64,000 nucleotides of DNA from a virus (IMGVR_UViG_3300042922_001182:174985-238984); one strand, 5' to 3'. Shown: positions 11,552 to 52,561, numbered from the stretch's first letter. The notes: generated by a model from the letters alone, not told the origin. Numbers and translations are program-made.

Positions 11552-11581
11552 CCGCTGCAAGGCCAATGCGCCTTGCAGCGG
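11552..11581 (+). other. Stable hairpin before the chaperonin gene
   Basis: A perfect 12-bp stem (CCGCTGCAAGGC/GCCTTGCAGCGG) with a 6-nt loop is not followed by a T-run, so it is unlikely to be an intrinsic terminator. It lies 47 nt before the chaperonin start and may be an RNA-processing site or 5' stabilising element. Confidence 0.5.
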
Positions 11582-11627
11582 AATGGTTCTCCACACTATA
11601 CCAAGACAGGAAAGAGGAAAGACAACC

Positions 11628-17042: not shown

Positions 17043-17699
17043 ATGCACATGAAGAACTGGGCCTGCTCGCGCTGCGGCCTCAAGGGGGAGAACCGGACCT
17101 TCGCGGACGGCACCGTTGTCAAGCTCTGCGGGGCCCATGTCCTGGAGTCGTGCCACGCCTGCGGGGCCGCGATGGGCGTCGGGTCCATGGCGGTAGCGGT
17201 GGACCACCGCTCGACCGGCGTCCACGGGCTCTGCAAGGGCTGCTCCAAGGCGCTCGTCTTCTCCAGCGACGAGCGGTGGAAGAACTGCATGTTCGGCGGC
17301 CTGCGGATGACGCCCATCGGCCTTCCTCACGTCGTCGCCACCAACATGGAGGATGTGGTCGAGGCGGTCCTGAGTGGCCGGGAGGTCCTGGGCGAAGTGG
17401 AGAACGCTGGCTGGGTGGTCTCGAAGGTCGCCCGCCAGAACGGCCGCAATTCCAACTCGCAGCTGGTCTCCATCGACTTCAGCGCCCCGGAGCCGACCAA
17501 TTTCGAGTTGCCTGAGGAGCTCGTTATCCCGAAGGACCACTACGAGAAGATGGACAAGCTCTTCCAGGATCTGTCGCGAAGCGGGGACCTCCACGTCACT
17601 GCCGTTCAGGGTGGTAAGACTATCGTCTGGGACACCCTGGCCGTCGTTGCGGACGAGTTCGCGAGCTGCGGTGGCCCGGTGCTGGCCGATGGCGAGTAG
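17043..17699 (+). CDS. Zinc-binding protein of unknown function
   Basis: The 218-residue protein has an N-terminal cysteine-rich region: CSRCG (about 8-12), a CGAH near 29 and CHACG near 38-42, followed by CKGC near 61-64. These could form two zinc sites. The remainder is a mixed fold without recognisable motifs. Its end overlaps the primase start by 11 nt, so translational coupling is likely and a role in replication is possible. Confidence 0.6.
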   Translation: MHMKNWACSRCGLKGENRTFADGTVVKLCGAHVLESCHACGAAMGVGSMAVAVDHRSTGVHGLCKGCSKALVFSSDERWKNCMFGGLRMTPIGLPHVVATNMEDVVEAVLSGREVLGEVENAGWVVSKVARQNGRNSNSQLVSIDFSAPEPTNFELPEELVIPKDHYEKMDKLFQDLSRSGDLHVTAVQGGKTIVWDTLAVVADEFASCGGPVLADGE

Positions 17700-18750
17700 C
17701 GACTCCCTGAGCCTCGGGGAGCTGTTCTACGAGGTGGCCTTGCGCCACCTCGCGGTCTGCTACCCGAACGCGGCCGGTACGGACCTGACCATCCGGTGCC
17801 CCTACTGCGGCGACTCCGACAAGAGCACCCGGAAGGGGCACTTCTACGTCAGCCTCCTGGACGAGCCCCTGCGGTTCTACTGCCAGCGCTGCACCGTCTC
17901 CGGGGTGGTGACGGCTACCACCCTCCGCGATCTCAACCTCCCGGACGACTCCCTGCTCATCCGGGTGTACAAGAGCTGCAAGGAGGCGAAGTACTACCGG
18001 AAGCTCAAGACCAGGGAGACCGGCTTCGCCGACAAGCAGCTGGTGGTCCCGTACCCCCTCGGGACGGCCAGGGAGCTGGAGAACCTGGCCTACATCAACG
18101 AGCGGCTCGGCTCCGACATCACCCTTGCCGAAGCGGCGGAGACCTACCGGGTCCTGCTCAGCTTCAGCGCCTTCTTCAAGGCCAACAAGATCAGCGTCCA
18201 CACCGAGGACCCCGACCGCCTGCGCCTCTACGACAAGGCGTGCGTGGGGTTCCTCAGCTACGACCAGTCCCATGTCGGCTTCCGCTCCCTCAACGAGAGG
18301 TCCACCGGATTCCGTTACCGGACTTACAACATCTTCGGCGAGTACGAGGATGCGTCTCGCTTCTACACCATCAAGTCGGAGGTAGACGTCCTGAAGCAGC
18401 GCCAGCACGTCGTGCTGGCCGAGGGATTCTTCGACATCGTGGGCGTCCACCAGCACGTCTACGGCGGGGAGACGAACGGGTCCATATTCGTCGCCATCAA
18501 CGGCAAGGGCTACAACGTGGTCCTTCTCCACCTCCTCCGCCTGGGCTTCCTGGAGATGGACGTGGACATCTACTCCGACGACGAGCTGGAGCTCGGCTTC
18601 TACAAGAACATGCTCAGCCGTGAGCCCAAGCTAGCCGCGCAGAACTACCGGATACACTACAACCGCAAGTCCAAGGACTTCGGAGTCCCGGCGGACAGCA
18701 TCGCCGTTCGATCCGCCACCCTTAGGATAGAGAGGAACATCAGAAGATGA
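17689..18750 (+). CDS. DnaG-type DNA primase (zinc ribbon + TOPRIM)
   Basis: Start ATG 17689 overlaps the previous gene by 11 nt. The 353-residue product begins with a CHC2-like zinc ribbon (C37-x2-C40...C65-x2-C68) and ends with a TOPRIM domain: AEGFFD near residue 245 supplies the conserved Glu and IYSDDELE near 295 the Asp pair that binds metal. The middle part resembles phage primases of large myophages. It would make RNA primers for phage replication. It is shorter than bacterial DnaG (about 580) and lacks a helicase-interaction domain. Confidence 0.85.
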   Translation: MASSDSLSLGELFYEVALRHLAVCYPNAAGTDLTIRCPYCGDSDKSTRKGHFYVSLLDEPLRFYCQRCTVSGVVTATTLRDLNLPDDSLLIRVYKSCKEAKYYRKLKTRETGFADKQLVVPYPLGTARELENLAYINERLGSDITLAEAAETYRVLLSFSAFFKANKISVHTEDPDRLRLYDKACVGFLSYDQSHVGFRSLNERSTGFRYRTYNIFGEYEDASRFYTIKSEVDVLKQRQHVVLAEGFFDIVGVHQHVYGGETNGSIFVAINGKGYNVVLLHLLRLGFLEMDVDIYSDDELELGFYKNMLSREPKLAAQNYRIHYNRKSKDFGVPADSIAVRSATLRIERNIRR

Positions 18751-27540: not shown

Positions 27541-29331
27541 TTGGAAGACAAAGAGAAGAAGTACGGGGACCTGATCAACCAGGACGCCGCCCGTCGAGTA
27601 CTGCGCGGGATGTTCAACGACTCCGTCCCCGGGGTCGTCGCCGAGCTGCTGCAGAACGCCCAGCGGGCGGGCGCCACCCGCGTGGAGTTCGCCACCTCGG
27701 GGGAGGGTGGGTCCTACGCCGTCTCCTACAGGGACGACGGCCACGGTCTCCTCGGCGGTATGGACGGGCTGCACGCCTTCCTGAAGCTGGCCGAGACCTT
27801 CTTCGAGAACCCCGACGTGTACGACCAGCAGCCCATGGGGGTCGGCATCTACTCCCTCCTGGCCCACCCCGACATCCAGTCGGTGGTCGTCCGCTCCGGG
27901 GGCCTGGCGCTGGAGGTCGACACCCAGCGGTGGTGGGTGGAGCCCGGCTACTCGAAGACCTGGTTCGACCGCGTCCTTGAGTCGTCTGCCGAAGCCGACC
28001 CCGGCCTCAGGCTCAACATCACCTGCAACGCGTCCTTCGCGAAGGCCCTGAAGGACTGCCTCCCACCCTACCGCCCTCAGGCCCTGGAGGCCGAGGGCAG
28101 GGTCCGGGAGGTGCTAAACTTCCCCGCCGTCGGGTACGAGGGCATTCTTTCTGTGTCCCTTGATGGAACCCCTGTCTACACTGGTATCCCCCGCCGCATC
28201 CGAATCCCCGAATCCATCCTGAACTTCGAGTTCAGGGGCTCCATGGTCCGTGCCTCCTGGGTGGACCCGGAGGGCGGTGGCGCTACCCCGTCCTCCGTCG
28301 TGAACTGGTACGGCCAGCTCATCCCGATCGCCTCCAAGCGCCTCCGTAGGCTGCAGTTCTTCATGGACGTGAAGGACGGAAGGCCGCTGAACCCGCTGAC
28401 CCCCACCAGGAAGGGCATCGTCGAGGACGAGGCGTTCACCGAGCTCCTACAGGAGCTGGAGGACAAGCTGTTCGCATTCGTCTGCGACGAGTCCAACCGC
28501 CACCGGATCGGGCCCACCGTGATCGCTGGCCTGTTCACCATCGACGCGGCGAGGGCCCGCCGCCGGTGCCCCTACTACCTCGCCGCCAGGGTGGACAAGG
28601 CGGAGCCGTACCCCACCTCGTTCGAGTCCCTGACCCACACAAGCGATCTCGTGATCCTCTCCTACGACGAGGTGGTCACGGTCGTCGAGCCAGCCGTCCG
28701 GGTGTTCGACCAGGCCACGAAGAAGGAGATCAGCCTGACCATGAAGGGCCTCTCTACCTTCGCAGCCCTGGAGGGGGCCCCGGAGATGGTCATCCCCACC
28801 AGGTTCGCCGACTCCAAGCGGCTCCACAAGCAGGCTGTCTGGTGGGTGGTGGACACCGCCGCAGCTAACAAGGCAGCACGGTTCATCGTCCCTCCCGGCT
28901 TCTGGGCCGTCGGCGGTGTCGACGAGGTCCCCACCAACCTGAAAGCCGTGGAGGGGGAGGTGTTCGCCCTGGAGGTCCCCGCAGCCAGGGAGATCAGGGA
29001 CGCCGAGTGGCTCTGCGGCACCGACGACCCCGTAGGGTTCCTCCAGAGGTGGTCCAACGCGGCCTTCGAGCCCGCAGTGGAGGAGCGCCTGTTCGAAGAC
29101 GAGCTCTCCGACTACAGCGACTCCGTCAAGCGGCTGATCCGCAAGGTGCTCGGGAACCGCATACCCCTCAACTTCACACACGGGGAGCTCCAGCAGTTCT
29201 TCCCCGAGCGTCAGAAGACGAAGATATCCTCCGTGGTGTTCATCCACGGCAACCCGGGGTCGTCGATCCCGACAGAGATAGCAGTCTACTCCTCCGACGG
29301 GCAGGAGGTTCGCCTCACCATCATGGAGTAG
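27541..29331 (+). CDS. GHKL (Hsp90/histidine-kinase-fold) ATPase A
   Basis: TTG 27541 begins a 596-residue protein with Bergerat ATP-binding motifs at the N-terminus: N-box ELLQNAQRA (E35, N39), G1 DDGHGL (D65-L70) and G2 PMGVGIYSLL (98-107). The next domain contains WYGQLIPI (about 257) and LTPTRKGIV (about 285), the latter in the place where transducer or middle-domain basic residues contact ATP in GHKL enzymes. The remaining 300 residues are not recognised. A paralogue lies at 37504-39468. An Hsp90-like or MORC-like machine role is possible; no kinase H-box or topoisomerase domain is seen. Confidence 0.75.
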   Translation: MEDKEKKYGDLINQDAARRVLRGMFNDSVPGVVAELLQNAQRAGATRVEFATSGEGGSYAVSYRDDGHGLLGGMDGLHAFLKLAETFFENPDVYDQQPMGVGIYSLLAHPDIQSVVVRSGGLALEVDTQRWWVEPGYSKTWFDRVLESSAEADPGLRLNITCNASFAKALKDCLPPYRPQALEAEGRVREVLNFPAVGYEGILSVSLDGTPVYTGIPRRIRIPESILNFEFRGSMVRASWVDPEGGGATPSSVVNWYGQLIPIASKRLRRLQFFMDVKDGRPLNPLTPTRKGIVEDEAFTELLQELEDKLFAFVCDESNRHRIGPTVIAGLFTIDAARARRRCPYYLAARVDKAEPYPTSFESLTHTSDLVILSYDEVVTVVEPAVRVFDQATKKEISLTMKGLSTFAALEGAPEMVIPTRFADSKRLHKQAVWWVVDTAAANKAARFIVPPGFWAVGGVDEVPTNLKAVEGEVFALEVPAAREIRDAEWLCGTDDPVGFLQRWSNAAFEPAVEERLFEDELSDYSDSVKRLIRKVLGNRIPLNFTHGELQQFFPERQKTKISSVVFIHGNPGSSIPTEIAVYSSDGQEVRLTIME

Positions 29332-29356
29332 ACGACACTAGGAAGGAGAAACACCA

Positions 29357-29845
29357 ATGACCGTTAAGAAGGCCGTCCCGCCCAAGCCGAAGGCCGCCGC
29401 CAAGCAGCCCACCCGCATCACCCCGAAGGGGGACCACGCGGCCCTCGCCGTCATCCCCTCGGAGCAGCCGCCCGGCACCGCCCTGCTGTACGCCACCGTC
29501 GGCGGCCAGGAGGACCCGGAGACGGACCACGAGTACGCCGAGGGCGTCATGCTGTTCGTCAACGGCAAGCTCATCATGGAGGACTTCGGCGGCTGCTTCG
29601 CGGCGGCTGGAGTCGGCCTGTGGGCGATGGCCGCGAACCTCTCCGAGGCCCTCGGCGCCGAGATCGTCAAGGAGGAGATCGGCAAGGAGCACGAGGAGCG
29701 GATGGAGAAGTACTCCTACTCCGAGGCCCTGAACGGCCGCTCGGCCGACTCCCTCGACATGGCGATGTGGACCCTCGCCGACCGAGGCCTCATCGACTAC
29801 ACCCCTATGCACCTGCGAGAGCAGGAGAAGGAGATCACCGAATAA
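29357..29845 (+). CDS. Small acidic protein next to GHKL ATPase A
   Basis: The 162-residue product has a basic Pro/Ala/Lys-rich first 25 residues and a domain with VMLFVNGKLIMEDFGGCFAA followed by a helix ending LGAEIV. This strand-NGKL-strand-helix unit resembles those in the next gene. ATG 29357 follows GGAAGGAGAAACACC. It overlaps the next start by TAATG. Confidence 0.55.
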   Translation: MTVKKAVPPKPKAAAKQPTRITPKGDHAALAVIPSEQPPGTALLYATVGGQEDPETDHEYAEGVMLFVNGKLIMEDFGGCFAAAGVGLWAMAANLSEALGAEIVKEEIGKEHEERMEKYSYSEALNGRSADSLDMAMWTLADRGLIDYTPMHLREQEKEITE

Positions 29846-30459
29846 TGAGCGACGCGATCCTCAACCCCACCCACGTCTCCATCAACGACCACGTCCTGGT
29901 CTCGACCGAGGCGGCGGAGTACGCACTCGTCCTGTTCATCGGCGGCCAGCTCGTCACCCACGGCTCCGAGGGCGCCGGGGCCGAGACCGTCCGGCAGCTG
30001 GCCACCCAGCTCGCCTCCCTCTACGGCCAGAACGTGGTCGACCTGAGCTTCGAGGCCGCCCAGGTCGGCTACGAGTTCGACGACATCTACAATGACCAGG
30101 ACGTGCTGTTCAGCACCCTGACGAAGTGGCTGACGTCGCTGCGCACCGGCGAGGAGGAGCCCCGCGTGACGTTCGTCGAGGTCATCAGCCTGAACGACGC
30201 CGACAAGTCGCAGGCCGCCTTCCTCAACGGCCAGCTGGTCGTCTTCGACCGCGACCGCCGCAACCCGGACTTCACGGCCTCCGAGGTCGCCAACCGCATG
30301 GCGACGGCGCTCGGAGTCGGCCTGGAGTCGGTGGAGTGTCCCATCGAGCACATCGCCATGCCCCAGAACGGCGACTACGAGGTGACGGACCTCGTCCAGT
30401 GGGTCCAGATCAACTACTTCCCGGAGCTCCTGGAGGAGGAGTCCGCTCAGCCCGAGTAG
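29845..30459 (+). CDS. Acidic protein with two similar domains
   Basis: ATG 29845 overlaps the previous stop. The 204-residue product has two related units: ALVLFIGGQLVTHG...VRQLATQLASLYG and AAFLNGQLVVFDRD...VANRMATALGV. Both match the NGKL unit of the preceding gene. A multi-copy small alpha/beta domain is therefore encoded by two adjacent genes downstream of a GHKL ATPase. Biochemical role unknown. Confidence 0.55.
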   Translation: MSDAILNPTHVSINDHVLVSTEAAEYALVLFIGGQLVTHGSEGAGAETVRQLATQLASLYGQNVVDLSFEAAQVGYEFDDIYNDQDVLFSTLTKWLTSLRTGEEEPRVTFVEVISLNDADKSQAAFLNGQLVVFDRDRRNPDFTASEVANRMATALGVGLESVECPIEHIAMPQNGDYEVTDLVQWVQINYFPELLEEESAQPE

Positions 30460-30491
30460 GGCCAGGGCGAACGAGTTTTAATCCGAAAGGG

Positions 30492-30519
30492 TGGGTGCCA
30501 GCAGGCGCCCATTCTTTTT
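30492..30519 (+). terminator. Rho-independent terminator
   Basis: TGGGTGCC pairs with GGCGCCCA around AGCA and runs into TTCTTTTT. The next promoter motif starts three bases later. Confidence 0.75.
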
Positions 30520-30521
30520 GT

Positions 30522-30540
30522 CCACATATTATAGACGCGA
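30522..30540 (+). promoter_or_regulatory. Phage promoter motif
   Basis: CCACATATTATAG, exact to the CACATATTAT core, lies 36 nt before TTG 30568. The downstream block is GACGCGAGC instead of GTGAC. Confidence 0.65.
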
Positions 30541-30567
30541 GCCCAACCCAACATAGGAGGTAAGACA

Positions 30568-31029
30568 TTGATCGAAATACGCCAAGAGAGCGAGGCCACC
30601 GCCCTGCTCGCCAACCCCGACCTCAGCCCCGCCATGCGGGCCATGATCGAGGGGTGCGGCAGCATCCAGAAGGCCATCGTCGATGGTCTGTCGGATGGAC
30701 CCTGGACGGTCGAGGACGTCGGCTGGTGCGTCATCATCGAGAACGTAAACGATCTCGCCTCCTTCGAGGCGAGCGGCGAGATCGAAGACGGCATCGTGTG
30801 GACGACGGCCGAGGCCGTCACCTACAACAGCGAGCACCAGTTCTTCAGCATCACCATCATCTACAACAACGACTTCGGCAAGAACTTCTTCGTTCCCTAC
30901 GAGATCCTGGGTAACAACGAGCGCGTCGAGCTGCTGAAGCAGGCCGTCGAATACGAGCGGTCGGCCCTGAAGACGCTCTCGGAGGCCTACGAGATCCTCA
31001 AGGACTCCAAGAAGGACGGCCCCAAGTGA
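30568..31029 (+). CDS. Unknown phage protein
   Basis: TTG 30568 follows AGGAGGTAAGACA. The 153-residue protein has an N-terminal helical half, a central beta region (FFSITIIYNNDFGKNFFV) and a C-terminal Lys/Glu-rich helix. Nothing is recognised. It overlaps the next gene by 4 nt. Confidence 0.55.
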   Translation: MIEIRQESEATALLANPDLSPAMRAMIEGCGSIQKAIVDGLSDGPWTVEDVGWCVIIENVNDLASFEASGEIEDGIVWTTAEAVTYNSEHQFFSITIIYNNDFGKNFFVPYEILGNNERVELLKQAVEYERSALKTLSEAYEILKDSKKDGPK

Positions 31030-31226
31030 GCGCCCCGAACCGCTGCGGGGAGTGCCCCGCCTGCATCCGCTTCAAGCGGGTGCAGCAGCAGATGCTCTCC
31101 AACCTGCCCCTGATCGCCAACGGCATGATGGTCCAGGGGAGCCACCTAACGGACAGCGACGTGGCCTTCTACAACCGCTCCCTAGAGGAGAACCCCTGCG
31201 AAAAGAAAGAAGGTGAGCAACAGTGA
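31026..31226 (+). CDS. Small cysteine-containing protein
   Basis: GTG 31026 overlaps the previous stop. The 66-residue product has CGECPAC near residues 7-13 and a later cysteine, suggesting an incomplete zinc or metal site. It is linked by 4-nt overlaps to genes on both sides. Confidence 0.5.
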   Translation: MSAPNRCGECPACIRFKRVQQQMLSNLPLIANGMMVQGSHLTDSDVAFYNRSLEENPCEKKEGEQQ

Positions 31227-32047
31227 ACGAGCCCATCAGCACCCAGGACATGCTCCTGGCCGTCTGCACGACCCTCATGTGGAGCATGTTCGGGGGAGGT
31301 CGGAGGCCCCTCACCACCAAGAGCGACGGGAAGGAAGTGGCGTTGCTGTACCTCCCCGAGCGGTTCAGCGGGGTCGAGGCCCTGATCGCCGTGAGGTCGG
31401 AGAACATCGTTGGGAAGGCCCTCCACATCAAGGGGTTCTCCCTGGTCTTCACCGCGACGACGGCCGTCGGTCGCGACGCCCTCATGGACGCCCAGCAGGA
31501 CATGCGGCAGAGGAAGGGCTGGTTCGACTCGCCCAGCGAGCCCATCCGGGCGCTGGCGCAGTGGGGGCTTGAGGGGGAGGACCCCTCGTCCATCACCGTC
31601 GAGCTGGACACCGGCTCCATCACGGAGGCCGTGCACGTCTTCACGGAGGCGATGGTCATCGTCGACAACCTGTTGAAGAGCACGACCGACGCGGCGTGCT
31701 CCTCTTTCCGCGAGAAGGTCAGGCGGGTGGCCGAGGACACCCTCGACGAGATGTCGCACATCGACCGCCCGCTCTTCAACCTGTGCATGCAGGCCGTCGG
31801 CCTGGGGCGCATCCAGACCGTCGTCGACACGACGACCGACAGGGCGGGTGTCGCGATCGCGCCCGTCACCAGGCTCACCGCCCTGGTCCCCTTCCCCTTC
31901 AACACCAACGGCAACAGCGCCCTCTCCCTGAGCATGCTGCTCTCCGCCAGCGCCCCCGAGGAGTGCGAGGAGGCCTTCATGCTCACGTTGAAGGAGGCCA
32001 TCCATACCTCCGTCAACTACAGCCAGGAGGCTGAGACCACGCCCTGA
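31223..32047 (+). CDS. Unknown phage protein
   Basis: GTG 31223 overlaps the previous stop. The 274-residue protein alternates strands and helices; its VDTTTDRAGVAIAPVTRL...LVPFPF segment weakly resembles VDTSTDAVALVTCQCVMDR...LVPVPL of 40875-41780, so the two may be distant relatives. It ends just before a strong terminator. Confidence 0.5.
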   Translation: MNEPISTQDMLLAVCTTLMWSMFGGGRRPLTTKSDGKEVALLYLPERFSGVEALIAVRSENIVGKALHIKGFSLVFTATTAVGRDALMDAQQDMRQRKGWFDSPSEPIRALAQWGLEGEDPSSITVELDTGSITEAVHVFTEAMVIVDNLLKSTTDAACSSFREKVRRVAEDTLDEMSHIDRPLFNLCMQAVGLGRIQTVVDTTTDRAGVAIAPVTRLTALVPFPFNTNGNSALSLSMLLSASAPEECEEAFMLTLKEAIHTSVNYSQEAETTP

Positions 32048-32057
32048 GGGCGAACTG

Positions 32058-32086
32058 CGGGGGGCCTCGGCCCCCCGTATTTTTTT
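32058..32086 (+). terminator. Rho-independent terminator
   Basis: CGGGGGGCC/GGCCCCCCG with a short loop is followed by TATTTTTTT. It separates the 30.5-32.0 kb unit from the tail/baseplate genes. Confidence 0.85.
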
Positions 32087-32145
32087 GGGCACGGCAACAA
32101 TCCCATAGGCAACTACGTGAGAATTTCCGACTGGGGGTGACCGCA

Positions 32146-34203
32146 TTGAAACTAACGGACAGCCAGAGAGAAGACCTGGACAGGCTCTTCGAATTCGTGC
32201 TCACCCTCGTCGTCAAGGACGAGTGGCAGGCCGAGGCCAACGAGACCGTCGAGTCGGCGAGGCTGGCCTACGAGTACATGGACGCCATCCTTGGCGTGGA
32301 CGGCAGGACCGAGGCGGAGAGGCAGCTGCTTATCTCCTCGTACGTCGAGCCCAATCCCTACTACAAGAAGCTGCAGGACGACCACGGCATCTCGCCGTTC
32401 GAGGCCAGGTCGGCCAAGAACTTCCAGATCCTCAGCTACGAGCGATTCATCCTCCCGCAGGCCAGGTACGCCGTCTTCCTGGACGAGTACTACAAGGTGA
32501 TGAGGTACTTCACGGCCGTCCTCTACACGAAGGCGTTCGAGTCCGACCTCCTCTACCCCAACTTCTGCAGGCTCTACATCACGATGATGGCGATCCTCCG
32601 GTACCTGGACGCGTCCATGGACCAGACCGGCAACATCGACTTCCTGAGCTCCAGCGCCCTGGAGAACATGCTCAAGTCCCACGGCCTGGGCATCCTGACC
32701 ACCCTCCCCGCCGTGTACCAGCGGAAGGTGCTGAAGAACCTGACGGAGCTCATCCGATTCAAGGGAACGACGACCGCCATCGAGCGCATCGTGGACCTGT
32801 TCGGCTTCAGCGGCGTCTTCATCTACCGTCACTACCTCTTCAAGGACTACCCGAGAGACGAGGCGGGCGCGATCGTCGACTGGTCCTCCCCCGACATCAG
32901 GTTCCTCAAGATCCGGCACGACGCCGAGGACGTCGAGAGGGAGATCCCCGACGCGGCGTCCGACAGCTACGACTTCTTCACTGGGCGCGATCCCTACTGG
33001 CAGTGCAGCCGCGAGGAGCTGCTGGCGAAGGACTTCAACCTCCTGGCCACCAAGTACATCTCCATCGGCTCGACGCTGGACTTCGTCGGCACGGCCCTTG
33101 AGCTGTCCTACTTCAGGACGCTCATCAACCGCATCGAGACGACGGGCATCCCGGCGCACCTCCAGTTCCTCAACGAGAAGATCTCGGCGGAGGAGATCAA
33201 GGTCTACGATGCCCTCATCGCGGCGCAGATCCTCGTCACGAGGTTCCTCGGCTTCAACGATACCATCATCACGAGCGAGACCGGGGTGGCGACCGTCTAC
33301 GGGTACTCCTTCGACCAGGCCGACAAGTTCGAGATCGACGGGGTCAGCGACGTCGTCGACCCGGCCACGCTGCCGAAGGCCGACGAGCAGGCGTTCATCG
33401 AAACGTACCGGCGAAACAACATCTACCGTAGGGCCTTCGAGAGAATCACAGCAGGGACGCAGGACTACGAGACCTACAAGGAGCTCGCCAGGATCCACAA
33501 GGTGAAGTTCATCGCGCAGTACCAGTCGGCGGTCTTCGACGGCTTCGCGACGTACTCCGCGTACCTCCTCACCAGGAACCCGGACCTGCACAAGTACGTC
33601 GAGGAGGCCCTGGTGCTCACCGAGGACCAGGACGTCGACGTGGAGGCCACGAGGAACATCATCGTCGATCGGCTCTCGGAGATCGTCACCTCGCTGGACA
33701 ACTACCTCGACCTTGAGGACGGCGCGTTGAACATCTTCGCCTCGGCCAACTCGGCCCTGGTGGACCAGATCAAGGTCTACATGCGCCAGGTGGTCCAGCT
33801 GTTCAAGTCCTACACCGTGGACCTGCGCGACTTCGTCGTGACCTACATGGTGAAGGGCGACCCCTTCAACACCGGCATCCACTGGCGCGAGAGGAAGACG
33901 CTCACCTCCGAGCTCTGGAAGGCGGACGACGCCTCGGAGCACGCCTACGACAGGTTCTCCATCATCATCCCCGTACAGAGGGGCACGATCGACCACATGG
34001 TCTTCGAGGACGAGCTCTGGATCACCTCCAGGGTGCGTAAGCGAGACGACGCGGCGTTCAGCGACGACAGGACCATCACCGCCAGCACGGCGAGGGCCGA
34101 CCTGCTGCCGCTCAGCGACGACAGGAAGACCCACGGCTTCTTCCAGAGGGCGGACGGCCTGACGGGAATGCACGACACGTTCACCATCACGGTGATACCA
34201 TAA
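32146..34203 (+). CDS. Large tail/baseplate protein (gpI-like region)
   Basis: TTG 32146 is preferred over GTG 32137 because GGGGGTGA is 6 nt upstream. The 685-residue protein contains LPAVYQRKVLKNLTELIRFK then GTTTAIERIVDLFG (about residues 187-225), which matches the KGT helix of phage tail protein I and related baseplate proteins. The remaining parts are helical in the middle and beta-rich in the last 100 residues. It is followed 18 nt later by another structural-like gene. A baseplate or tail-fibre connector role is likely; the exact position is not known. No CATATTAT motif precedes it. Confidence 0.6.
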   Translation: MKLTDSQREDLDRLFEFVLTLVVKDEWQAEANETVESARLAYEYMDAILGVDGRTEAERQLLISSYVEPNPYYKKLQDDHGISPFEARSAKNFQILSYERFILPQARYAVFLDEYYKVMRYFTAVLYTKAFESDLLYPNFCRLYITMMAILRYLDASMDQTGNIDFLSSSALENMLKSHGLGILTTLPAVYQRKVLKNLTELIRFKGTTTAIERIVDLFGFSGVFIYRHYLFKDYPRDEAGAIVDWSSPDIRFLKIRHDAEDVEREIPDAASDSYDFFTGRDPYWQCSREELLAKDFNLLATKYISIGSTLDFVGTALELSYFRTLINRIETTGIPAHLQFLNEKISAEEIKVYDALIAAQILVTRFLGFNDTIITSETGVATVYGYSFDQADKFEIDGVSDVVDPATLPKADEQAFIETYRRNNIYRRAFERITAGTQDYETYKELARIHKVKFIAQYQSAVFDGFATYSAYLLTRNPDLHKYVEEALVLTEDQDVDVEATRNIIVDRLSEIVTSLDNYLDLEDGALNIFASANSALVDQIKVYMRQVVQLFKSYTVDLRDFVVTYMVKGDPFNTGIHWRERKTLTSELWKADDASEHAYDRFSIIIPVQRGTIDHMVFEDELWITSRVRKRDDAAFSDDRTITASTARADLLPLSDDRKTHGFFQRADGLTGMHDTFTITVIP

Positions 34204-34221
34204 GAAAGGAAGAGTAAAGGG

Positions 34222-35022
34222 ATGCAGAAGAAGGAGAACATCGTCGTCAAGACCTTCAAGGAGCTGCTCAAGCTCCGGGAGAAGGTCGTCGGCCTGACGG
34301 CAGAGGCGGTGGGCGCCACCGTCAGCGCCTACGAGAGGCAGCCGATGGGCGGCGCCCTGACGACCGGCCACAAGAAGAACAAGATCATCATCAGGGACGC
34401 CATCACCAACGAGATCCTCCTGGAGGACTGGCCCAACCTGATCGTGCTCCGTGGGCGCACCTACGCCCTGGAGAAGCTGTTCGCCGACCCCATCGGCGCC
34501 TCAGGCACCAACCCGGCGTACGTCAACAACCTGAACCGCAAGATCGCCCTCTTCTCGATCGGCGACGGCGGGGCCCCCTCGGCCGACCCCTTCAACCCCA
34601 CGCCCCCTGAGCCGCTGGACCAGGCGCTCGGCAACCGCATTCCGTTCAGGACGGTGGACTCCAGGGACGCGGCCACCAACCTCAGCGTCCCCGAGCAGTC
34701 GATGTACTACCAGTCCGTCGTCACCAACCTGAACGACGGCGCCCCGTACACCCTGACGAAGTACTACGCCAAGACGTTCGACGTGGCCGACCCCGAGTGG
34801 GGCCTGGACACGGCGAACAACGAGGTGTACAAGAAGATCGTCCTCCGCATCAGCGACAAGGACGCCCGCAACCTCGGCGTGAACGAGATCATGCTCATGA
34901 TCGCCGAGTGGACCGGGAGCACCTACGCGGACATCGAGGCGTACTCCATCATCACCTTCCCGACGGAGTCGCTCCTGGACCCCACGAAGCAGCTCATCAT
35001 CGAGTACTACGTCTACTCCTAG
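34222..35022 (+). CDS. Probable tail/baseplate protein
   Basis: The 266-residue protein starts at ATG 34222 behind AAGAAAGGAAGAG. It has a basic N-terminal helix, a beta-rich body with IIIRDAITNEILLEDWPNLIV (about residues 53-74) and a final ITFPTES...QLIIEYYVYS, a pattern common at the ends of phage wedge and fibre-attachment proteins. It lies directly after the gpI-like gene. The role is inferred from this linkage. Confidence 0.5.
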   Translation: MQKKENIVVKTFKELLKLREKVVGLTAEAVGATVSAYERQPMGGALTTGHKKNKIIIRDAITNEILLEDWPNLIVLRGRTYALEKLFADPIGASGTNPAYVNNLNRKIALFSIGDGGAPSADPFNPTPPEPLDQALGNRIPFRTVDSRDAATNLSVPEQSMYYQSVVTNLNDGAPYTLTKYYAKTFDVADPEWGLDTANNEVYKKIVLRISDKDARNLGVNEIMLMIAEWTGSTYADIEAYSIITFPTESLLDPTKQLIIEYYVYS

Positions 35023-35033
35023 GCGATCATCAA

Positions 35034-35046
35034 GCACATATTATAG
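35034..35046 (+). promoter_or_regulatory. Phage promoter motif abutting a hairpin
   Basis: GCACATATTATAG is an exact core match. The terminator-like hairpin at 35047 begins directly after it, so a transcript starting here would carry the hairpin at its 5' end. The next gene starts at 35102. Confidence 0.6.
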
Positions 35047-35080
35047 ACCGGCAAGCCTTCGGGCTTGCCGGTTTCCGTTT
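35047..35080 (+). terminator. Terminator-like UUCG hairpin
   Basis: ACCGGCAAGCC/GGCTTGCCGGT with TTCG loop and following TTTCCGTTTT. It can end transcripts of the tail genes and is also at the 5' end of any transcript from the motif at 35034. Confidence 0.75.
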
Positions 35081-35101
35081 TCGCCCTATAGGAGGCTAGA
35101 C

Positions 35102-35578
35102 ATGATCGCAGACATCGCCCGTCAGGACGACGTGGAGACGAAGACCCTGGTCCTCTACAGGGCCGCCATGGACTTCAAGCCCTCGCGGCACAGCATGCTC
35201 ACCCACCTCGTCGGCAAGGTGGTCAAGGATGAGGTTTACTACGTTTCCTACATGGCCCGCATGGCGGCCAAGTGGGGCGTTCAGCTCTACCTCCGCTCCT
35301 CCGAGCTGAAGATCTACAGGATCGAGGCGAGCCACGCCTACGGGTGGAGCCGACAGTACCAGAACTGGGACGAGAAGAAGCTCTGGCGGTCCGGAGAGAA
35401 GATGCCGGAGGACGGATTCACGATCGTCCGCAGCACCCGCGAGGCCTCTCGCGAGGCCCACTGCGAGCTGATCACGCCGCCGGAGCTCATCGTCCCCAAG
35501 ATGGCGATCATCACTTACGATGAGCTCTCCCCCGAAGAGACGAAGCGCTACCTCATTGATGCGTCCTACAGGTGCTAG
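35102..35578 (+). CDS. Unknown phage protein
   Basis: The 158-residue protein starts at ATG 35102 behind ATAGGAGGCTAGAC. It is basic in the middle and rich in Tyr/Trp/Arg (about residues 45-100), suggesting a folded alpha/beta domain that could bind nucleic acid. No family recognised. It is the first gene after a promoter motif and hairpin leader. Confidence 0.55.
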   Translation: MIADIARQDDVETKTLVLYRAAMDFKPSRHSMLTHLVGKVVKDEVYYVSYMARMAAKWGVQLYLRSSELKIYRIEASHAYGWSRQYQNWDEKKLWRSGEKMPEDGFTIVRSTREASREAHCELITPPELIVPKMAIITYDELSPEETKRYLIDASYRC

Positions 35579-35695
35579 CAGGGGAAGAACAAATCTTCTG
35601 AAGAGAAAGAAAAAAAACGCGGATCCGTTTGGAACCCGTGGGTTCTGGGTATGAAGGACGGGGCGAGAGGTCGCCCCCACTAGAAAGGAGGAGTC

Positions 35696-36430
35696 TTGCA
35701 GTTCCAGGTGATCAACAAAGGCACGGGTGAGGAGGTCATCCTGATAGGGGTGGAGAGCAGGGAAGAGATCTACGAACGTCTCTTCAAAATGCAGGGATTC
35801 ACTATCAACGGACTCGATGAGAATGGGTTCGACAGCAAGGTCGAGCACTTCCTCAGAAGCACGTCCAAGCTGCACAGGGACGACACCTGGTACCCCGAGG
35901 ACGAGACCCACACCGTCCCCCGGCAGGTGGCGGACGTGGTCTGGCCGAAGGGGGCCAGCGGCCCCTCGGTCCACTACAGGGTGAATGGGTCGGCGTCCGT
36001 CCGGAGGTGCTCCGTGGAGGTCTGGTACGGCTGGGCGTTCTCCTACCGGTGCCGCCCGCGCACGGGACCGCCCCCGGCCCACGCGGCCCCCGACTGGGAC
36101 CCCCTGGTGGACGCCATCGGGGCGGTGATCAACAACTCCTCCCCGCTGATGCGAGAACCGGCGGAGCCGTGGGGAGGCGTTAGCTTCCACACCCTGCTAC
36201 AGATGATCACCGGGAGGCTCCGCTTCCTCCCTAGGGGGACCAAGCAGCACGACCTATGGCCCGGGACCGAGGGCAAGCTCGTCCAGCGCCTCCGCAGCCA
36301 GGAGTTCATCGTCAGGCTGGCGGAGCGCCAGAACATCTACTACCACCTTGACAAGCAGTCGGCCACCTTCATGCGCGTCCCGGGAACGGGACGCCCGATG
36401 AGCCGCGACCAGAGAGGAGAAACAACTTGA
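35696..36430 (+). CDS. Unknown phage protein
   Basis: TTG 35696 follows AGAAAGGAGGAGTC. The 244-residue protein has a beta/alpha N-terminus and a central Pro/Arg-rich part with two nearby cysteines (RRCSVEVWYGWAFSYRC). The C-terminus is helical and basic. It overlaps the next gene by 4 nt. The 117-nt gap before it (35579-35695) has an A-rich stretch and a weak inverted repeat. Confidence 0.5.
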   Translation: MQFQVINKGTGEEVILIGVESREEIYERLFKMQGFTINGLDENGFDSKVEHFLRSTSKLHRDDTWYPEDETHTVPRQVADVVWPKGASGPSVHYRVNGSASVRRCSVEVWYGWAFSYRCRPRTGPPPAHAAPDWDPLVDAIGAVINNSSPLMREPAEPWGGVSFHTLLQMITGRLRFLPRGTKQHDLWPGTEGKLVQRLRSQEFIVRLAERQNIYYHLDKQSATFMRVPGTGRPMSRDQRGETT

Positions 36431-36825
36431 TCCGTTTCATGACCCAGGCCCAGCTCGAAGCCGACAGGGAGAACCTGCAGCCGAGCGTCTACACCTCCAT
36501 CGTCCACCGCATCGACGAGCTCGCCACCTTCGACGAAGACCCGGCCTTCCACGGGCCGATCGTCTTCCTGGAGGACAGCGACCCCCTGGACGACCTGACC
36601 GCCTTCGGGGTGAGCAAGGAGCAGCGCGGGCTGTACGGCCCCGCCATCGACGGCGTCCACCTCTACGACAACGGCCTCGTCTGGATGGCCACCTTCCTGG
36701 TCGGCGTCGGCAAGAGCGGCACCGGCTCCGGGGTGGACGTCTTCGTCCACGACACCCACCCGGCCATGAACGAGGCCGTCCGGCAGAACCTGCTGGCGAT
36801 CTACAGGAAGGCAGGCGGTCGATGA
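36427..36825 (+). CDS. Small unknown protein
   Basis: TTG 36427 overlaps the previous stop and follows AGAGGAGAAACAAC. The 132-residue product is mixed alpha/beta, with GVHLYDNGLVWMATFLVGVG as a core strand pair. It overlaps the next gene by 4 nt and belongs to the operon of GHKL ATPase B. Confidence 0.5.
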   Translation: MIRFMTQAQLEADRENLQPSVYTSIVHRIDELATFDEDPAFHGPIVFLEDSDPLDDLTAFGVSKEQRGLYGPAIDGVHLYDNGLVWMATFLVGVGKSGTGSGVDVFVHDTHPAMNEAVRQNLLAIYRKAGGR

Positions 36826-37502
36826 AGAAGACCATCGAGTTCGCGCAGGACCTCGGCGACCTGGCCCTTGAGGTGGGGCGCATGGCCCAGGACAAGGAGA
36901 ACGAGCACCGCACGGAGGACGCCAAGATCGCCATCAAGCTGGTCGAGCTCCTCCAGGCCATCGCGGCGGCCCCCACGGGCCGTCTGGAGGCGGCCTTCAA
37001 CAACATGAACGCCAAGGCTGCCCTCAAGGGCGCCTTGGCGCGTTCCAAGCACGCGATCAGGTTCGAGGAGCTCCCCCCGGAGACCACCGGGCTGATGATC
37101 GGCGCTGGTCCGCGCATGTGGACCAGCGGCTCCATGGGGGCCAACATGTACCCCTACCGCTACGACGAGAAGGGCAGATTGGTGCCCGTGTCGGAGGACG
37201 ACCGCTGGATGTTCCAGGACTCCATCGATCACGGTTTCTCCGTCATCAACCTCCTCCCCGTCGGGCCACACGGCCCCGGGATGGCTCGCACCCTGACGAC
37301 CGGGGACCTCCTCTCCGTCCTGGCCCCGGACATCCAGGTCCGCGTCGTCAGCGGGGAGCTTGAGCTCACCTGGGGGCACATGGACCAGAAGGAGGTCTAC
37401 GTCGTGGACCCGTCCGACCTGACCCAGGAGCTCCCCTGGATCCCCGACCCCTACGAGTCGGTGGACAGCTCCAACCCCGCCAAGACCAAGGAGATCACCT
37501 AG
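36822..37502 (+). CDS. Unknown protein upstream of GHKL ATPase B
   Basis: The 226-residue protein starts at ATG 36822 overlapping the previous stop. The first 90 residues are helical; the rest is mixed with a Gly/Pro-rich middle. It ends one base before the GHKL ATPase B start, so the two are probably co-translated. No family recognised. Confidence 0.5.
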   Translation: MKKTIEFAQDLGDLALEVGRMAQDKENEHRTEDAKIAIKLVELLQAIAAAPTGRLEAAFNNMNAKAALKGALARSKHAIRFEELPPETTGLMIGAGPRMWTSGSMGANMYPYRYDEKGRLVPVSEDDRWMFQDSIDHGFSVINLLPVGPHGPGMARTLTTGDLLSVLAPDIQVRVVSGELELTWGHMDQKEVYVVDPSDLTQELPWIPDPYESVDSSNPAKTKEIT

Positions 37503-37503
37503 C

Positions 37504-39468
37504 ATGACGAAGAGCACCAAGGACTACACCAAGCTCGTCAACGAGCACAAGATCCGCAGCGGCATCCGCCGCGCCTTCACCGGCGAGGTCGGCGAGGTCG
37601 TCGCCGAGCTGCTGCAGAACTCCCAGCGGGCAGGTGCCCGCACCGTGGACGCCCGCACCGAGTACGAGGGGGAACCTTCGGTCCCGCAGATGAAGGCGGC
37701 GGCCCCCAAGATGAAGGGGGGACCCATGCCCAAGAGGGCTCCCTCACCCGCGCCCATCCCCAGCGCCGCGAAGAAGGCCGGTAGCGGGGAGTGGAAGGAT
37801 CAGGCCGCCGGACGTTTCTGCTACAGCGACGACGGCCACGGCCTCTCGCGTGGTAAGGACTCTTTCCACGACCTCCTGAGCATGGGGGACAGCGGCTACG
37901 ACCGCCCCGAGGTGGAGCAGCAGCATCCCATGGGCATCGGCATCAACTCCCTTTTGGCCCTGGAGGGCGTCAAGCGTGTGGTCCTCCGCTCCAACGGCCT
38001 CCGCCTGAGCATCGACACCCACTCCTGGTGGGAGGACGAGGGGTACTACACGACCTGGGCGGACCGCGTGGAGGCGGACCCCCTACCGGTGGACGGGCTC
38101 GCCATCGAGGCCGACCTGGCCCCCGGGGTCCTCTGGGAGTTCGAGAAGTGCTTCCTCCGCTACGATCGAGGCGATAGCGCGCTCCTAGCTGTCACCGGCT
38201 ACGGCGAGGTATTCGACGCCCTCCGGATCAACGGGGTTCAGGCCGACACCGCAATCCCCTCCGCCGTCCTTCCGTTCTCGTCGGAGCCGCTGGTCGACAC
38301 CGACTTCGACGGCTCGCGCCTCCGCGTCTGGCACGTGCCGCCGGAGAACCGCTACGACTACTCCAAGAAGAGCCTCGTGAGCTGGTATGGCCAGCTCATT
38401 CCCATTCACATCGAGGCGATGCAGTACCGCCAGCGGTTCTTCTTCCACCTCCAGGTCGGCTCCGGCACCCCCGTCACCCCCAAGAGCCCCACCCGGGACT
38501 CGATCGTGAAGGACGCCAAGTGGGACAAGCTCAACCGGGCCATCGTCGACGCCCTGTTCGCCTCCGCATCCGACGAGTCCAAGGTGGAGACGTGGACCGC
38601 AAAGGCTGTAAAGGCGCTCTACCATATCGACCGCATCCGCGCCTCACGCACCCTCTTCTTCGTGGCGGCCCCCGTCGATGAAGAGGCCATCAAGAAAGCG
38701 CAAACGCACGCGCACGACGGTTCCAGCTACGACGAGCCTCCGGATCTAGAGGTCTACCGCACCAAGGAGATCAGCCAGCTGATGACCATCTCCGGCGTCG
38801 TCCGGGTGATCGGCGGCGAGGGCAAGAAGGCGAAGAAGAAGAAGGAGGAGGAGAAGGGGTTCAAGGCGGAGAACCTCGGCTGCCTGGGCTCCTTCGCGCT
38901 CCCCGAGGGGACGGTCCTCCTGACCGACCTCCAGGTTCCAGACGGCTGGGAGGGTCGCCTGTTCGACCTGGAGGTCTCCCTGGACGCCGAGCCCTTCTTC
39001 GTCTGGGCTGACGCGTCCTTCTTCCGCTCCGCCAGCTGGCGGCTCGTGCCCCGGGACCACGGGACTGCGACGGACTGGAAGCCGCTCGCCAAGGACGCGT
39101 GGTTCCTGAAGGAGGACTTCCAGTACACCTTCGGCGACGTCAAGACCAGCGCGGTGGTGCTCGACGGCAACGTCAAGCGCTTCCTGAACGAATTCGGCGA
39201 CTACCTCATCTACCTCGGCGAGGACGACCAGGACGGCCAGGAGGAGAACCACTCCGACTGCATCGCCACCGCCATCCGAGAGTTCGTCGGCAAGGACGTC
39301 ATCGAGGAGGGCTTCACGATGCACACCCTCTCCATGATGTTCAAGAAGCTCACCGGTAAGAAGCAGGAGGTCGAGAGCATCAAGGTCAATCGCGACAAGG
39401 ACGGCAACATGACCAGCATCGACGTCGTCAGCACCACCGGGACCGCGCAGACCCTGCGCGTCCTTTAG
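37504..39468 (+). CDS. GHKL (Hsp90/histidine-kinase-fold) ATPase B
   Basis: The 654-residue protein is a paralogue of 27541-29331. Bergerat motifs are ELLQNSQRA (E35, N39), DDGHGLSRG (from 109) and PMGIGINSLL (142-151). An extra 50-residue Pro/Lys-rich loop (about 53-100) separates N-box and G1. Also conserved are DTHSWWEDEGYYTTWADRV, SWYGQLIPI (about 295) and SPTRDSIV (about 330). A Lys/Glu-rich stretch near 440-455 marks a linker before the unrecognised C-terminal third. ATP binding is likely; function is unknown. Confidence 0.75.
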   Translation: MTKSTKDYTKLVNEHKIRSGIRRAFTGEVGEVVAELLQNSQRAGARTVDARTEYEGEPSVPQMKAAAPKMKGGPMPKRAPSPAPIPSAAKKAGSGEWKDQAAGRFCYSDDGHGLSRGKDSFHDLLSMGDSGYDRPEVEQQHPMGIGINSLLALEGVKRVVLRSNGLRLSIDTHSWWEDEGYYTTWADRVEADPLPVDGLAIEADLAPGVLWEFEKCFLRYDRGDSALLAVTGYGEVFDALRINGVQADTAIPSAVLPFSSEPLVDTDFDGSRLRVWHVPPENRYDYSKKSLVSWYGQLIPIHIEAMQYRQRFFFHLQVGSGTPVTPKSPTRDSIVKDAKWDKLNRAIVDALFASASDESKVETWTAKAVKALYHIDRIRASRTLFFVAAPVDEEAIKKAQTHAHDGSSYDEPPDLEVYRTKEISQLMTISGVVRVIGGEGKKAKKKKEEEKGFKAENLGCLGSFALPEGTVLLTDLQVPDGWEGRLFDLEVSLDAEPFFVWADASFFRSASWRLVPRDHGTATDWKPLAKDAWFLKEDFQYTFGDVKTSAVVLDGNVKRFLNEFGDYLIYLGEDDQDGQEENHSDCIATAIREFVGKDVIEEGFTMHTLSMMFKKLTGKKQEVESIKVNRDKDGNMTSIDVVSTTGTAQTLRVL

Positions 39469-39517: not shown

Positions 39518-40897
39518 ATGGAAAACACCGGGCACCGCGAGGTCCAGGGGTACGAGGAGATACGCCAGGAGGCCGCGAAGGCCGACGAGCGCGGTAACGA
39601 GCTCTTTGCCCTCGCCTGGAGGCACCACGCGATCATCGAGGAGAACACGGAGGAGGGGGAGCGGGACTCCATCGGTCCGATCCTGGTCTTCCTCCCCAAG
39701 GGGGAGGAAGACAGCGACGAGGAGCTGGTCCGGATCACCGAGGACACCTTCGAGGAGCTGGTCTATGTCCCTGCGGTCAGGGCCTTCACCGGCATCATCA
39801 TCACCGGTGAGGAAGGCTTCGGGGTCGTGTTCCCCGAGGAGCGCCTGTCGCCGAGGGATGTCGAGCACCTCAAGACCGTCGCGACCGAGTACGGGGACCA
39901 GCAGGTCATCTCCCCCCTGGCGGGCTTCGGCACCCCCGAGGCCCAGGCCAAGGAGGCCCAGGACGTCATGACCCAACACCTGTTCCAGCACGGCGGCTTC
40001 TACGCCGTCGGCCCCGTCTGGACCTTCTCGAACTCTCGTAGCAAGGTCACTTACCGGGACGCCATGATCGCGGAGCGGATGACCCACGTCGTCGCCTGCG
40101 CCATCGAGGCTGGCCTCAAGGAAGGCCGGGAGGAGATCCTCAAGACGTCGGAGGCGCTGGCGCAGGCCCTCGGCTCGTACTCCTCCGTCCTCTCCAACGT
40201 CGCCATGGCCACCTTCTTCGCCCGCTTCCCGGGAGTGACCGGCGATTTCGGCCTCAAGGACAACGAGGCGTTCATCCACCTCGTGCGGAAGGTCGTCGAA
40301 GGCGGTGGCCTCTCTGTGGGGGCCGTGATCTACGCCAAGAGGGAGCTCGCCGAGCGCTCCGAGATGCAGGTCGCCGCCCTCCCGGAGGCGGTGTCGGAGG
40401 CTGGCGGCGCCGTGCCGGAGGACATGGTGCCAGTCTCCGTGACGGGCCTCGGGGCGGGCCACCACCCCCTTGACGAGGACGCGGTCGACATCCTGGAGGA
40501 GGCCGCGACGCTGATCGGCATCTCCGAGGTGATCAGCTCGTACCTGGATCAGCCCATCCTGCTCACCGCCTTCCTGTCAATGGAGCAGCTCCAATCCCTC
40601 AACCAGCGGCTCACCGGCCACATCCAGTGGCTGCAGTCCGGCTTCATGGCGGATGCCGCCGAGGCCCTGAAGGACAAAGACGAGGCCCGGCGTGGGGATC
40701 CCGATCCCATCCTGGTGCTCCAAGGCCCCAGCGGTGCCCCGATGCTCCTGACGTGCAAGTGCGTCCTGGATCGGGCGGGGATGAAGGTCGAGGGCCTCGA
40801 CAAGGTCCCCAATAAGGTCATCTACGAGATCGTCGGCATCGTGACCGACGTTGAAGAGAAAGGAAACGACGACAGTGGATCCGAATCGCAAGAGTAG
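39518..40897 (+). CDS. Unknown protein, paralogue of 40875-41780
   Basis: The 459-residue protein has an N-terminal alpha/beta part (about 1-150, with PILVFLPKGEE and FTGIIITGEEGFGVVF) and a C-terminal part homologous to the next gene: QHGGFYAVGPVW, VPVSVTGLGA...HPLDED and MLLTCKCVLDRAGM. The conserved pair of cysteines in LTCKCV could be functional. It lies downstream of GHKL ATPase B. No family was recognised. Confidence 0.55.
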   Translation: MENTGHREVQGYEEIRQEAAKADERGNELFALAWRHHAIIEENTEEGERDSIGPILVFLPKGEEDSDEELVRITEDTFEELVYVPAVRAFTGIIITGEEGFGVVFPEERLSPRDVEHLKTVATEYGDQQVISPLAGFGTPEAQAKEAQDVMTQHLFQHGGFYAVGPVWTFSNSRSKVTYRDAMIAERMTHVVACAIEAGLKEGREEILKTSEALAQALGSYSSVLSNVAMATFFARFPGVTGDFGLKDNEAFIHLVRKVVEGGGLSVGAVIYAKRELAERSEMQVAALPEAVSEAGGAVPEDMVPVSVTGLGAGHHPLDEDAVDILEEAATLIGISEVISSYLDQPILLTAFLSMEQLQSLNQRLTGHIQWLQSGFMADAAEALKDKDEARRGDPDPILVLQGPSGAPMLLTCKCVLDRAGMKVEGLDKVPNKVIYEIVGIVTDVEEKGNDDSGSESQE

Positions 40898-41780
40898 CAC
40901 CGACCCCTTCGGCAGGCAGCAGTTCGAGGAGCACGCCCGCGACCACGGCGGCTTCTTCATCGCGGGCCAGGTCTGGGACTGGGGCACCAAGAACGAGCAG
41001 GAGCTGTACAAGCTCCTCGCCGTCATGAAGACGCAACTCGTTCGCCTCTTCTCCCTGGCCCGGGTCAACGACAAGAGCCGTGACCTCACCGAGGCCGCCG
41101 CAGTCCTCTCCTCGTCCCTGGCCCTGGCCTCCAGGCTGTCCAGCAGCGCGGCCATCGAGGCCTTCTGCAAGGACAAGACCGCCGAGGAGATCCTGACCGG
41201 TGGGGTTGGCACCGTCATCAAGCAGACCAAGTTCGAAGGCGCCCACGGCGGCATCGAGATCTACGTCTTCATGCTCCCGGAGTTCGCCGAGTCCCTCGGC
41301 ATGGCCGCCGTGGAGCCCCCGCGCCACGTCGCGGATCAGCTCCCTCCCGGGACCGTGCTCGTCTCGGTCACCGGGCGAGGCGCCCTGGACCACAACCCCC
41401 TCCCTGCTCGGGCCCTGCTGCGGTTCATGAGCTCGGACGTCTACCACACCGTGAGGCCCTTCCTCCTCAAGGCCTCCCAGTCCAAGTCCGCCGTGAAGTC
41501 CCTGCTCCAAGGGGACTTCTTCCAGGCCTTCGAGGAGAAGCTTCGCAACGACACGGAGGCCCTCAGGACGGTCCTCTTCTACAAGGCGGTCGACGCCCTC
41601 GGCGTCGGCGTCGGCGAGGAGTCCAGGGACCCCCTCCTCTCCATCGTCGACACCTCGACCGACGCGGTCGCCCTGGTGACCTGCCAGTGCGTCATGGACC
41701 GCAACGGCATCGAGAAGCTCGTCCCCGTCCCGCTGAGCGTCGTCCGGGAGGCCCTGGACGCCGGTCTGGCTGGCGGCTGA
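40875..41780 (+). CDS. Unknown protein, paralogue of 39518-40897
   Basis: GTG 40875, behind GAGAAAGGAAACGACGACA, gives 301 residues and overlaps the previous gene by 23 nt; an in-frame TTG at 40851 is possible. Shared blocks with 39518-40897 are DHGGFFIAGQVW, VLVSVTGRGALDHNPLP and LVTCQCVMDRNGI. It lacks the N-terminal 150-residue domain of its neighbour, consistent with tandem duplication and loss. Confidence 0.55.
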   Translation: MDPNRKSSTDPFGRQQFEEHARDHGGFFIAGQVWDWGTKNEQELYKLLAVMKTQLVRLFSLARVNDKSRDLTEAAAVLSSSLALASRLSSSAAIEAFCKDKTAEEILTGGVGTVIKQTKFEGAHGGIEIYVFMLPEFAESLGMAAVEPPRHVADQLPPGTVLVSVTGRGALDHNPLPARALLRFMSSDVYHTVRPFLLKASQSKSAVKSLLQGDFFQAFEEKLRNDTEALRTVLFYKAVDALGVGVGEESRDPLLSIVDTSTDAVALVTCQCVMDRNGIEKLVPVPLSVVREALDAGLAGG

Positions 41781-52169: not shown

Positions 52170-52304
52170 GTGGAGCCCTTGCCCCACCTCTACGACTGGG
52201 GGATGTGGTTGGTGCTCGCCGCGATGGCGGGCGTCTCGGCCCTGGTCGGCGTGATAGCGGAGGCCCTCATCAGGAGGGCCAGAGAAAGAAGGCTAGAGAA
52301 ATGA
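52170..52304 (+). CDS. Tiny single-helix membrane protein
   Basis: GTG 52170 begins on the base after the previous stop. The 44-residue product has one hydrophobic helix (MWLVLAAMAGVSALVGVI) and an Arg/Lys-rich C-terminus (RRARERRLEK), giving N-out/C-in topology. Its TGA overlaps the next ATG (ATGA), which supports it being a real gene despite its size. Confidence 0.55.
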   Translation: MEPLPHLYDWGMWLVLAAMAGVSALVGVIAEALIRRARERRLEK

Positions 52305-52561
52305 TTCTGAAGATGAAGGGGTACCCTACGGTCGAGATCGCCGATTTCGCCGAGGCCTCCAAGGTGTTCTGCGAGCGGCGCGAGGAGTCGGGCCTCGGTT
52401 TCAGGGACTTCGTCGACGGGTTCGTCTACGAGGGGAAGAAGAAGGTCGCCCGGATCAGCTACAACGGCCGCGTCTGGCCGCCGGGGCCCTACAAGGAGGG
52501 CCAGGTCCCCCTCTGGGACAACCGGAGGGGTAGCGATACTAGAGAGAAAGAAGGTAGCTAG
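52301..52561 (+). CDS. Small unknown protein
   Basis: ATG 52301 overlaps the previous stop. The 86-residue product is alpha/beta with basic residues in the middle and a short polar C-terminal tail. Nothing recognised. Confidence 0.45.
   Translation: MILKMKGYPTVEIADFAEASKVFCERREESGLGFRDFVDGFVYEGKKKVARISYNGRVWPPGPYKEGQVPLWDNRRGSDTREKEGS

Follow-up and report, generated by a model that had tools for sequence, protein, structure and literature searches.

Why would a single phage carry two related GHKL ATPases? The question is raised by a 64,000-nucleotide stretch of viral DNA (the window, which forms the final 64 kb of the 238,984-base virus record IMGVR_UViG_3300042922_001182) and by two of its genes, here called gpA and gpB. 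Phage GHKL ATPases are known mainly through RIIA, the molecular action of which is unclear after seven decades. Judged from their sequences, gpA and gpB arose by duplication and form a diverged offshoot of a GHKL-S5 family that has no name and is spread across plasmids, integrative elements, and the genomes of large phages. With regard to function, we lean tentatively, and with somewhat less than even confidence, toward dimeric clamps that are gated by ATP and assist the invading DNA, probably through counter-defence.

Both genes are on the plus strand. gpA (27541..29331) encodes 596 amino acids from a TTG start located 9 bases past the preceding stop, and gpB (37504..39468) encodes 654 amino acids from an ATG start. 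A preliminary description of this DNA had called them paralogous GHKL open reading frames (ORFs), and BLASTP confirmed this (32% identity over 453 columns, E = 2e-52). Since the two are paralogous, the blocks they share are not due to chance. All of the motifs described for both proteins were recovered. In gpA, these are E35-x3-N39 of the N-box, with E35 as the predicted general base (27643..27645); DDGHG at residues 65 to 69, where D65 is the predicted adenine-contacting residue (27733..27735); PMGxG at 98 to 102; YGQLIPI from 257 (28309..28329); and P288-T-R290, the predicted catalytic arginine loop (28402..28410). Their gpB counterparts are E35 (37606..37608), DDGHG from residue 109 (D109, 37828..37830), PMGxG from 142, YGQLIPI from 295 (38386..38406), and P329-T-R331 (38488..38496). 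Between the N-box and DDGHG, gpB also has a Pro/Ala/Lys-rich insert (residues ~57 to 100, 37672..37803), which the alignment showed to be missing in gpA and in the other aligned viral-contig relatives and which is predicted to be disordered (pLDDT of <50 at residues 61 to 93).

In the AlphaFold models of both proteins, only the GHKL and S5 domains were predicted with confidence; in gpA, the prediction was poor at residues 346 to 545. The GHKL domain of gpA spans residues ~8 to 165 (27562..28035; pLDDT mostly 67 to 95, with a profile alignment to the family) and is followed by an S5/transducer-type domain at residues ~200 to 320 (28138..28500), as delimited by the model and by Foldseek. Among structures in the Protein Data Bank (PDB), gpA matched TRAP1 first (1e-10), followed by MutL (6e-9) and MORC3 (4e-8), and gpB matched MutL first (3e-8), followed by TRAP1, ParE, MORC2, and GyrB. 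The predicted models of both proteins therefore keep the GHKL ATP-binding fold, and neither best match was a phage topoisomerase or primase (the T6 topoisomerase ranked 33 for gpA and 21 for gpB). A profile search of the PDB ranked Hsp90s first. Because TRAP1/Hsp90, MutL, MORC, and GyrB/ParE match about equally, we regard this as a generic GHKL-S5 module for which neither "Hsp90" nor "MutL" can be selected as a name. Foldseek against viral predicted structures gave few good matches, among them proteins labeled "histidine kinase-like ATPase" (Vibrio phage) and "HSP90 family protein" and the RIIA of phage ME3. As the preliminary description had proposed, Pfam and curated family searches gave no match to an H-box, Toprim, or MutL C-terminal domain; nor did HisKA or any histidine kinase match, the GHKL domain being at the extreme N terminus. 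Domain library searches found no nuclease, Toprim, or DNA-binding domain in either protein, neither was recognized above threshold by Pfam or PHROGs, and the MutL family score was 15 bits, below the cutoff of 693.

Scans with gpA, gpB, and the pair found no close relatives in viral contigs, genome contigs, or annotated phages, collections that may lack records near the source genome. A scan of the viral contigs for DNA encoding the exact WYGQLIPI block was also discarded, as both of its matches were chance occurrences of WYGQFIPI in unrelated ORFs. The family was reached solely via a degenerate DNA motif for the N-box, ELxQNxxRAGA, which was present in 14 viral contigs and at least 120 bacterial contigs, mostly in ORFs for proteins of 530 to 700 amino acids with the full GHKL motif set. 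A gpA/gpB profile aligned over residues 1 to 356 with that of eight viral-contig proteins (probability 99.1, E = 9e-19) and over residues 1 to 330 with that of 57 relatives (E = 1e-25). Two bacterial queries matched 97 and 28 records in the plasmid collection, where the relatives are mostly annotated as "ATP-binding protein" or hypothetical (for example, WP_011950458.1 on plasmid pSH2). Some relatives match HATPase_c or HATPase_c_3 or, weakly, phrog_6203, the nearest PHROG, which is of unknown function. None of the searched libraries names the family, and the open-access papers searched contained no account of it, which supports the earlier suggestion of an undescribed family.

The predicted ATPase active site is conserved. 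The N-box (E-x3-N), G1 (DxGxG), and G2 (GxG) motifs are present in gpA, gpB, and the 57 relatives, and 15 residues are invariant across the 59 sequences: E35, L36, Q38, N39, R42, A43, G44, A45, D65, G67, G69, G100, G102, P288, and R290 (gpA numbering). Because the relatives were retrieved with a motif that includes the N-box, the invariance of the N-box residues is not independent evidence. However, D65, G67, G69, G100, G102, P288, and R290 lie outside that motif, and their invariance is independent. The position of P-x-R (R290 in gpA, R331 in gpB) corresponds to PSR in T4 RIIA, VSR336 in HtpG, and HPAK307 in MutL. The HtpG and RIIA motifs were placed there by hhalign itself and MutL K307 was matched by eye; by themselves, profile comparisons of the S5 domain alone with HtpG, MutL, and RIIA do not reach significance, and just the P-x-R position was used from them. 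In T4 RIIA and 11 relatives, P-x-R-E is invariant and a YG..P block precedes it in the WYGQLIPI position (YGGIVYPI in T4 RIIA). In Hsp90 and MutL, the catalytic-loop basic residue contacts the ATP γ-phosphate. MORC-type proteins have also been described as conserving a basic residue within S5 (PMC2292703). By analogy, gpA R290 and gpB R331 probably make the same contact, so the earlier idea that a shared block supplies a basic ATP-contacting residue is well supported. Both proteins carry a complete GHKL ATPase domain with a conserved active site and are predicted to hydrolyze ATP.

The C-terminal regions behave differently. Residues 390 to 520 (approximately) of gpA and their gpB counterpart do not align, which agrees with the "unrelated C-terminal thirds" of the preliminary description, but the final ~75 residues show weak similarity (z = 3.8; 19 of 5,000 shuffles and 1 of 150 control C termini were as good) and do not fit that wording. 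Both models finish in helices followed by three strands (29104..29328 in gpA and 39232..39465 in gpB). Neither C-terminal region aligned with that of the wider family (E = 0.05 to 0.5), in which a W-containing motif and an acidic/Q motif are common without necessarily defining it. Because gpA and gpB share the ATPase module of the family whereas their C termini do not align with it, they are placed as a divergent branch. In the tree, the two form a fully supported group at the end of a long stem (2.28 changes per column), and their nearest relative is uncertain. As a separate observation, a 550-amino-acid GHKL protein on a viral contig (L006:3477-5129), also on a long branch, has a C-terminal HELAH (HExxH) metallopeptidase-like motif and is possibly a GHKL-protease fusion.

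What might such a module do for the DNA that carries it? On annotated plasmids, the family gene lies among PRTRC, DUF932, DUF736, Toprim, ParB, and MobH genes and an integrative and conjugative element (ICE) replication gene. In bacterial mobile elements, it is followed in 13 of 109 loci by a gene for a primase with Toprim and a Zn ribbon, which in several cases overlaps the end of the GHKL gene. Other neighbors are ParB-like genes (9 loci), DUF932 (8 loci), and MPTase-PolyVal, an antirestriction-type metallopeptidase (8 loci, four overlapping). Such gene sets are typical of the establishment and conflict regions of conjugative elements. These mobile-element neighborhoods support a role in aiding invading DNA and do not separate counter-defence from DNA metabolism.

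T4 RIIA offers a precedent for counter-defence. It is a GHKL protein, described as a counter-defence system that is poorly understood (PMC7824862), and divergent rII pairs act against RexAB (PMC11879866, PMC8594841). Relatives of T4 rIIA were found in 2,865 of 50,697 phage records; it is therefore not unusual for a large phage to encode a GHKL protein, contrary to what the preliminary description had assumed of Hsp90-like folds. Modeled on the action of the distantly related RIIA against RexAB, gpA and gpB would favor the survival of mobile DNA as it enters or replicates inside the host cell. They would be dimeric clamps with an N-terminal GHKL ATPase and an S5/transducer-type domain, the invariant P-x-R arginine of which reaches the γ-phosphate of ATP; the fast-diverging C-terminal regions probably choose the target; and duplication would give two target specificities. 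A broader claim, which we consider possible but hold with less assurance, is that conjugative plasmids, integrative elements, and jumbo phages share an unrecognized GHKL-S5 counter-defence (or DNA-establishment) family, which differs from RIIA and is able to coexist with it and whose two paralogues here would have two target specificities.

Several observations weigh against counter-defence. First, no known defence-related gene directly adjoins gpA or gpB, and most of their neighbors, including the intervening genes, match nothing. Second, PADLOC gave weak matches to the ATPase part alone, and membership in a defence system was rejected. Third, RIIA pairs with RIIB, and no RIIB was found in the phage record; the genes downstream of gpA and gpB do not match it, and the hypothesis of a RIIB partner was rejected. 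Finally, the most frequent bacterial partner is the primase, which suits DNA metabolism at least equally well.

This last point leads to the main rival, a clamp of DNA metabolism that would close on DNA when driven by ATP, as in the corresponding parts of MutL, MORC, and topoisomerases, and would aid a partner such as the primase in replication, repair, or compaction. The overlapping primase genes, the ParB-like and DUF932 neighbors, the presence of MutL, MORC, and GyrB/ParE among the top structural matches, and the match of the family profile to MutL are all consistent with it. However, no nuclease, Toprim, or DNA-binding domain was found in either protein, the primase gene of the window (17689-18750) is not next to gpA or gpB, and the plasmid neighbors vary. 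We consider this clamp rather unlikely, and counter-defence is ranked as the most likely reading.

An Hsp90-like chaperone that remodels phage or host proteins, as proposed in the preliminary description, ranks lower and is improbable. In its favor are the TRAP1/Hsp90 match of gpA, the Hsp90s at the head of the PDB profile search, and the HtpG-like SR loop motif. However, gpB matches MutL first, and the similarity ends at the GHKL-S5 module: the N-terminal and middle domains of Hsp90 are resembled, the C-terminal region is modeled at low confidence, and no Hsp90 C-terminal dimerization domain was recognized. The supposed link to the phage chaperonin can be judged from related genomes. The window has a GroEL-type chaperonin gene (11628-13382), and the source genome is that of a distant AR9/PBS1/phiR1-37-like jumbo phage. 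AR9, PBS1, and phiR1-37 have homologues of ORF 14487-15938, an RNA polymerase subunit (related staphylococcal phages carry it under the label "non-viral RNA polymerase specificity subunit"), and of ORF 32137-34203, a virion structural protein; ORF 61680-62912 is homologous to an RNA polymerase beta subunit. When AR9, phiR1-37, Staphylococcus phage Machias, and Listeria phage LPJP1 were searched with the GHKL-S5 family profile, no relatives of gpA or gpB were found. Since phiR1-37 has GroEL near the equivalent RNA polymerase subunit gene and no detectable GHKL relative, the chaperonin argument is unsupported. More generally, a chaperone or chromatin machine is conceivable, but nothing specific points to it, the ATPase module being equally that of Hsp90, MutL, MORC, and topoisomerases.

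Slightly more doubtful is the idea that gpA and gpB are virion-associated or injected proteins acting at the start of infection. They do flank structural genes, as gpA is 2.8 kb before the pair 32137-34203 and 34222-35022 and gpB is 2.5 kb after it. However, no match was found for the genes in between, quite different genes adjoin the structural pair in AR9 and phiR1-37, and the neighborhood resembles an accessory insertion. The weakest reading, already disfavored, is a true but fast-evolving RIIA pair, one or both having replaced rIIA in this jumbo-phage lineage: the order of GHKL, YG..P, and P-x-R is as in RIIA and the ME3 protein is among the top viral structure matches, but viral contigs G003 and G009 each encode a distinct, genuine RIIA in addition to a family member (in G009, RIIB adjoins the RIIA gene), the RIIA profile had no match in the window or the rest of this genome (hhalign probability of 1.9 for gpA/gpB), RIIB is not adjacent, and the family profile is closer to HtpG (2e-10) and MutL (5e-10) than to RIIA (1.5e-6). 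By sequence, neither gpA nor gpB is a RIIA, an Hsp90, or a MutL. Viral contig L167 has a GHKL-S5 gene at 2196-3872 and a separate rIIA-rIIB pair at 10006-13246, ~6 kb off.

Other features of the window touch on duplication. Seven paralogous gene pairs, including gpA/gpB, were found in the 64 kb; therefore, duplication is common in this jumbo-phage genome. Further pairs are 24490-25221/25597-26289, 54902-55264/55265-55636, and 57498-57917/59634-60080, and small-scale duplication seems frequent. A larger duplicated block holding both gpA and gpB was rejected, as the nearby genes compared were unrelated across the two sites. Directly downstream of gpB, 39518-40897 and 40875-41780 are overlapping paralogues of unknown function (26% identity, E = 1e-12), the first without a PHROGs or Pfam match. 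Elsewhere, an 86-amino-acid ORF (52301-52561) is 44% identical over 75 residues (E = 2e-19) to a small ORF (L142:9508-9810) directly upstream of the GHKL gene on the Sphingobium plasmid pSH2, and this match is a second tie between the jumbo phage and pSH2-type plasmids.

A second GHKL-S5 family, separate from RIIA, ties jumbo phages to large conjugative plasmids. Its active site is fully conserved, its genes travel with those for primases and antirestriction-type proteins, and it provides an accessible system for asking what GHKL ATPases do for invading DNA. Compared with known systems, gpA and gpB share GHKL and S5 domains with the N-terminal 40-kDa part of MutL, in which PAK307 is at the P-x-R position, but they lack the MutL C-terminal domain and match weakly in the N-box region alone. 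Hsp90, HtpG, and TRAP1 have the same order of GHKL N-terminal and middle domains and a catalytic arginine loop, whereas gpA and gpB match no curated Hsp90 family. Prokaryotic MORC and paraMORC proteins (PMC2292703) combine GHKL and S5 domains with a conserved basic residue, lateral spread, and a link to biological conflict, but gpA and gpB have no adjoining operon of this kind, as no helicase, nuclease, or methylase matched among the neighbors scanned. T4 RIIA is likewise a phage-borne GHKL and S5 protein with a PSR loop, a YG..P block, and a variable C terminus; gpA and gpB differ in having neither a RIIB partner nor a RIIA profile match, and their family coexists with RIIA elsewhere. The closest likeness is to the plasmid, ICE, and phage family itself. 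gpA and gpB differ from its other members in their long stem, their QRAGA, DDGHG, PMGxG, and WYGQLIPI variants, and their unaligned C-terminal region, and they share with them the GHKL and S5 module, the N-box ELxQN-x2-RAGA, the P-x-R loop, and a length of 530 to 700 amino acids.

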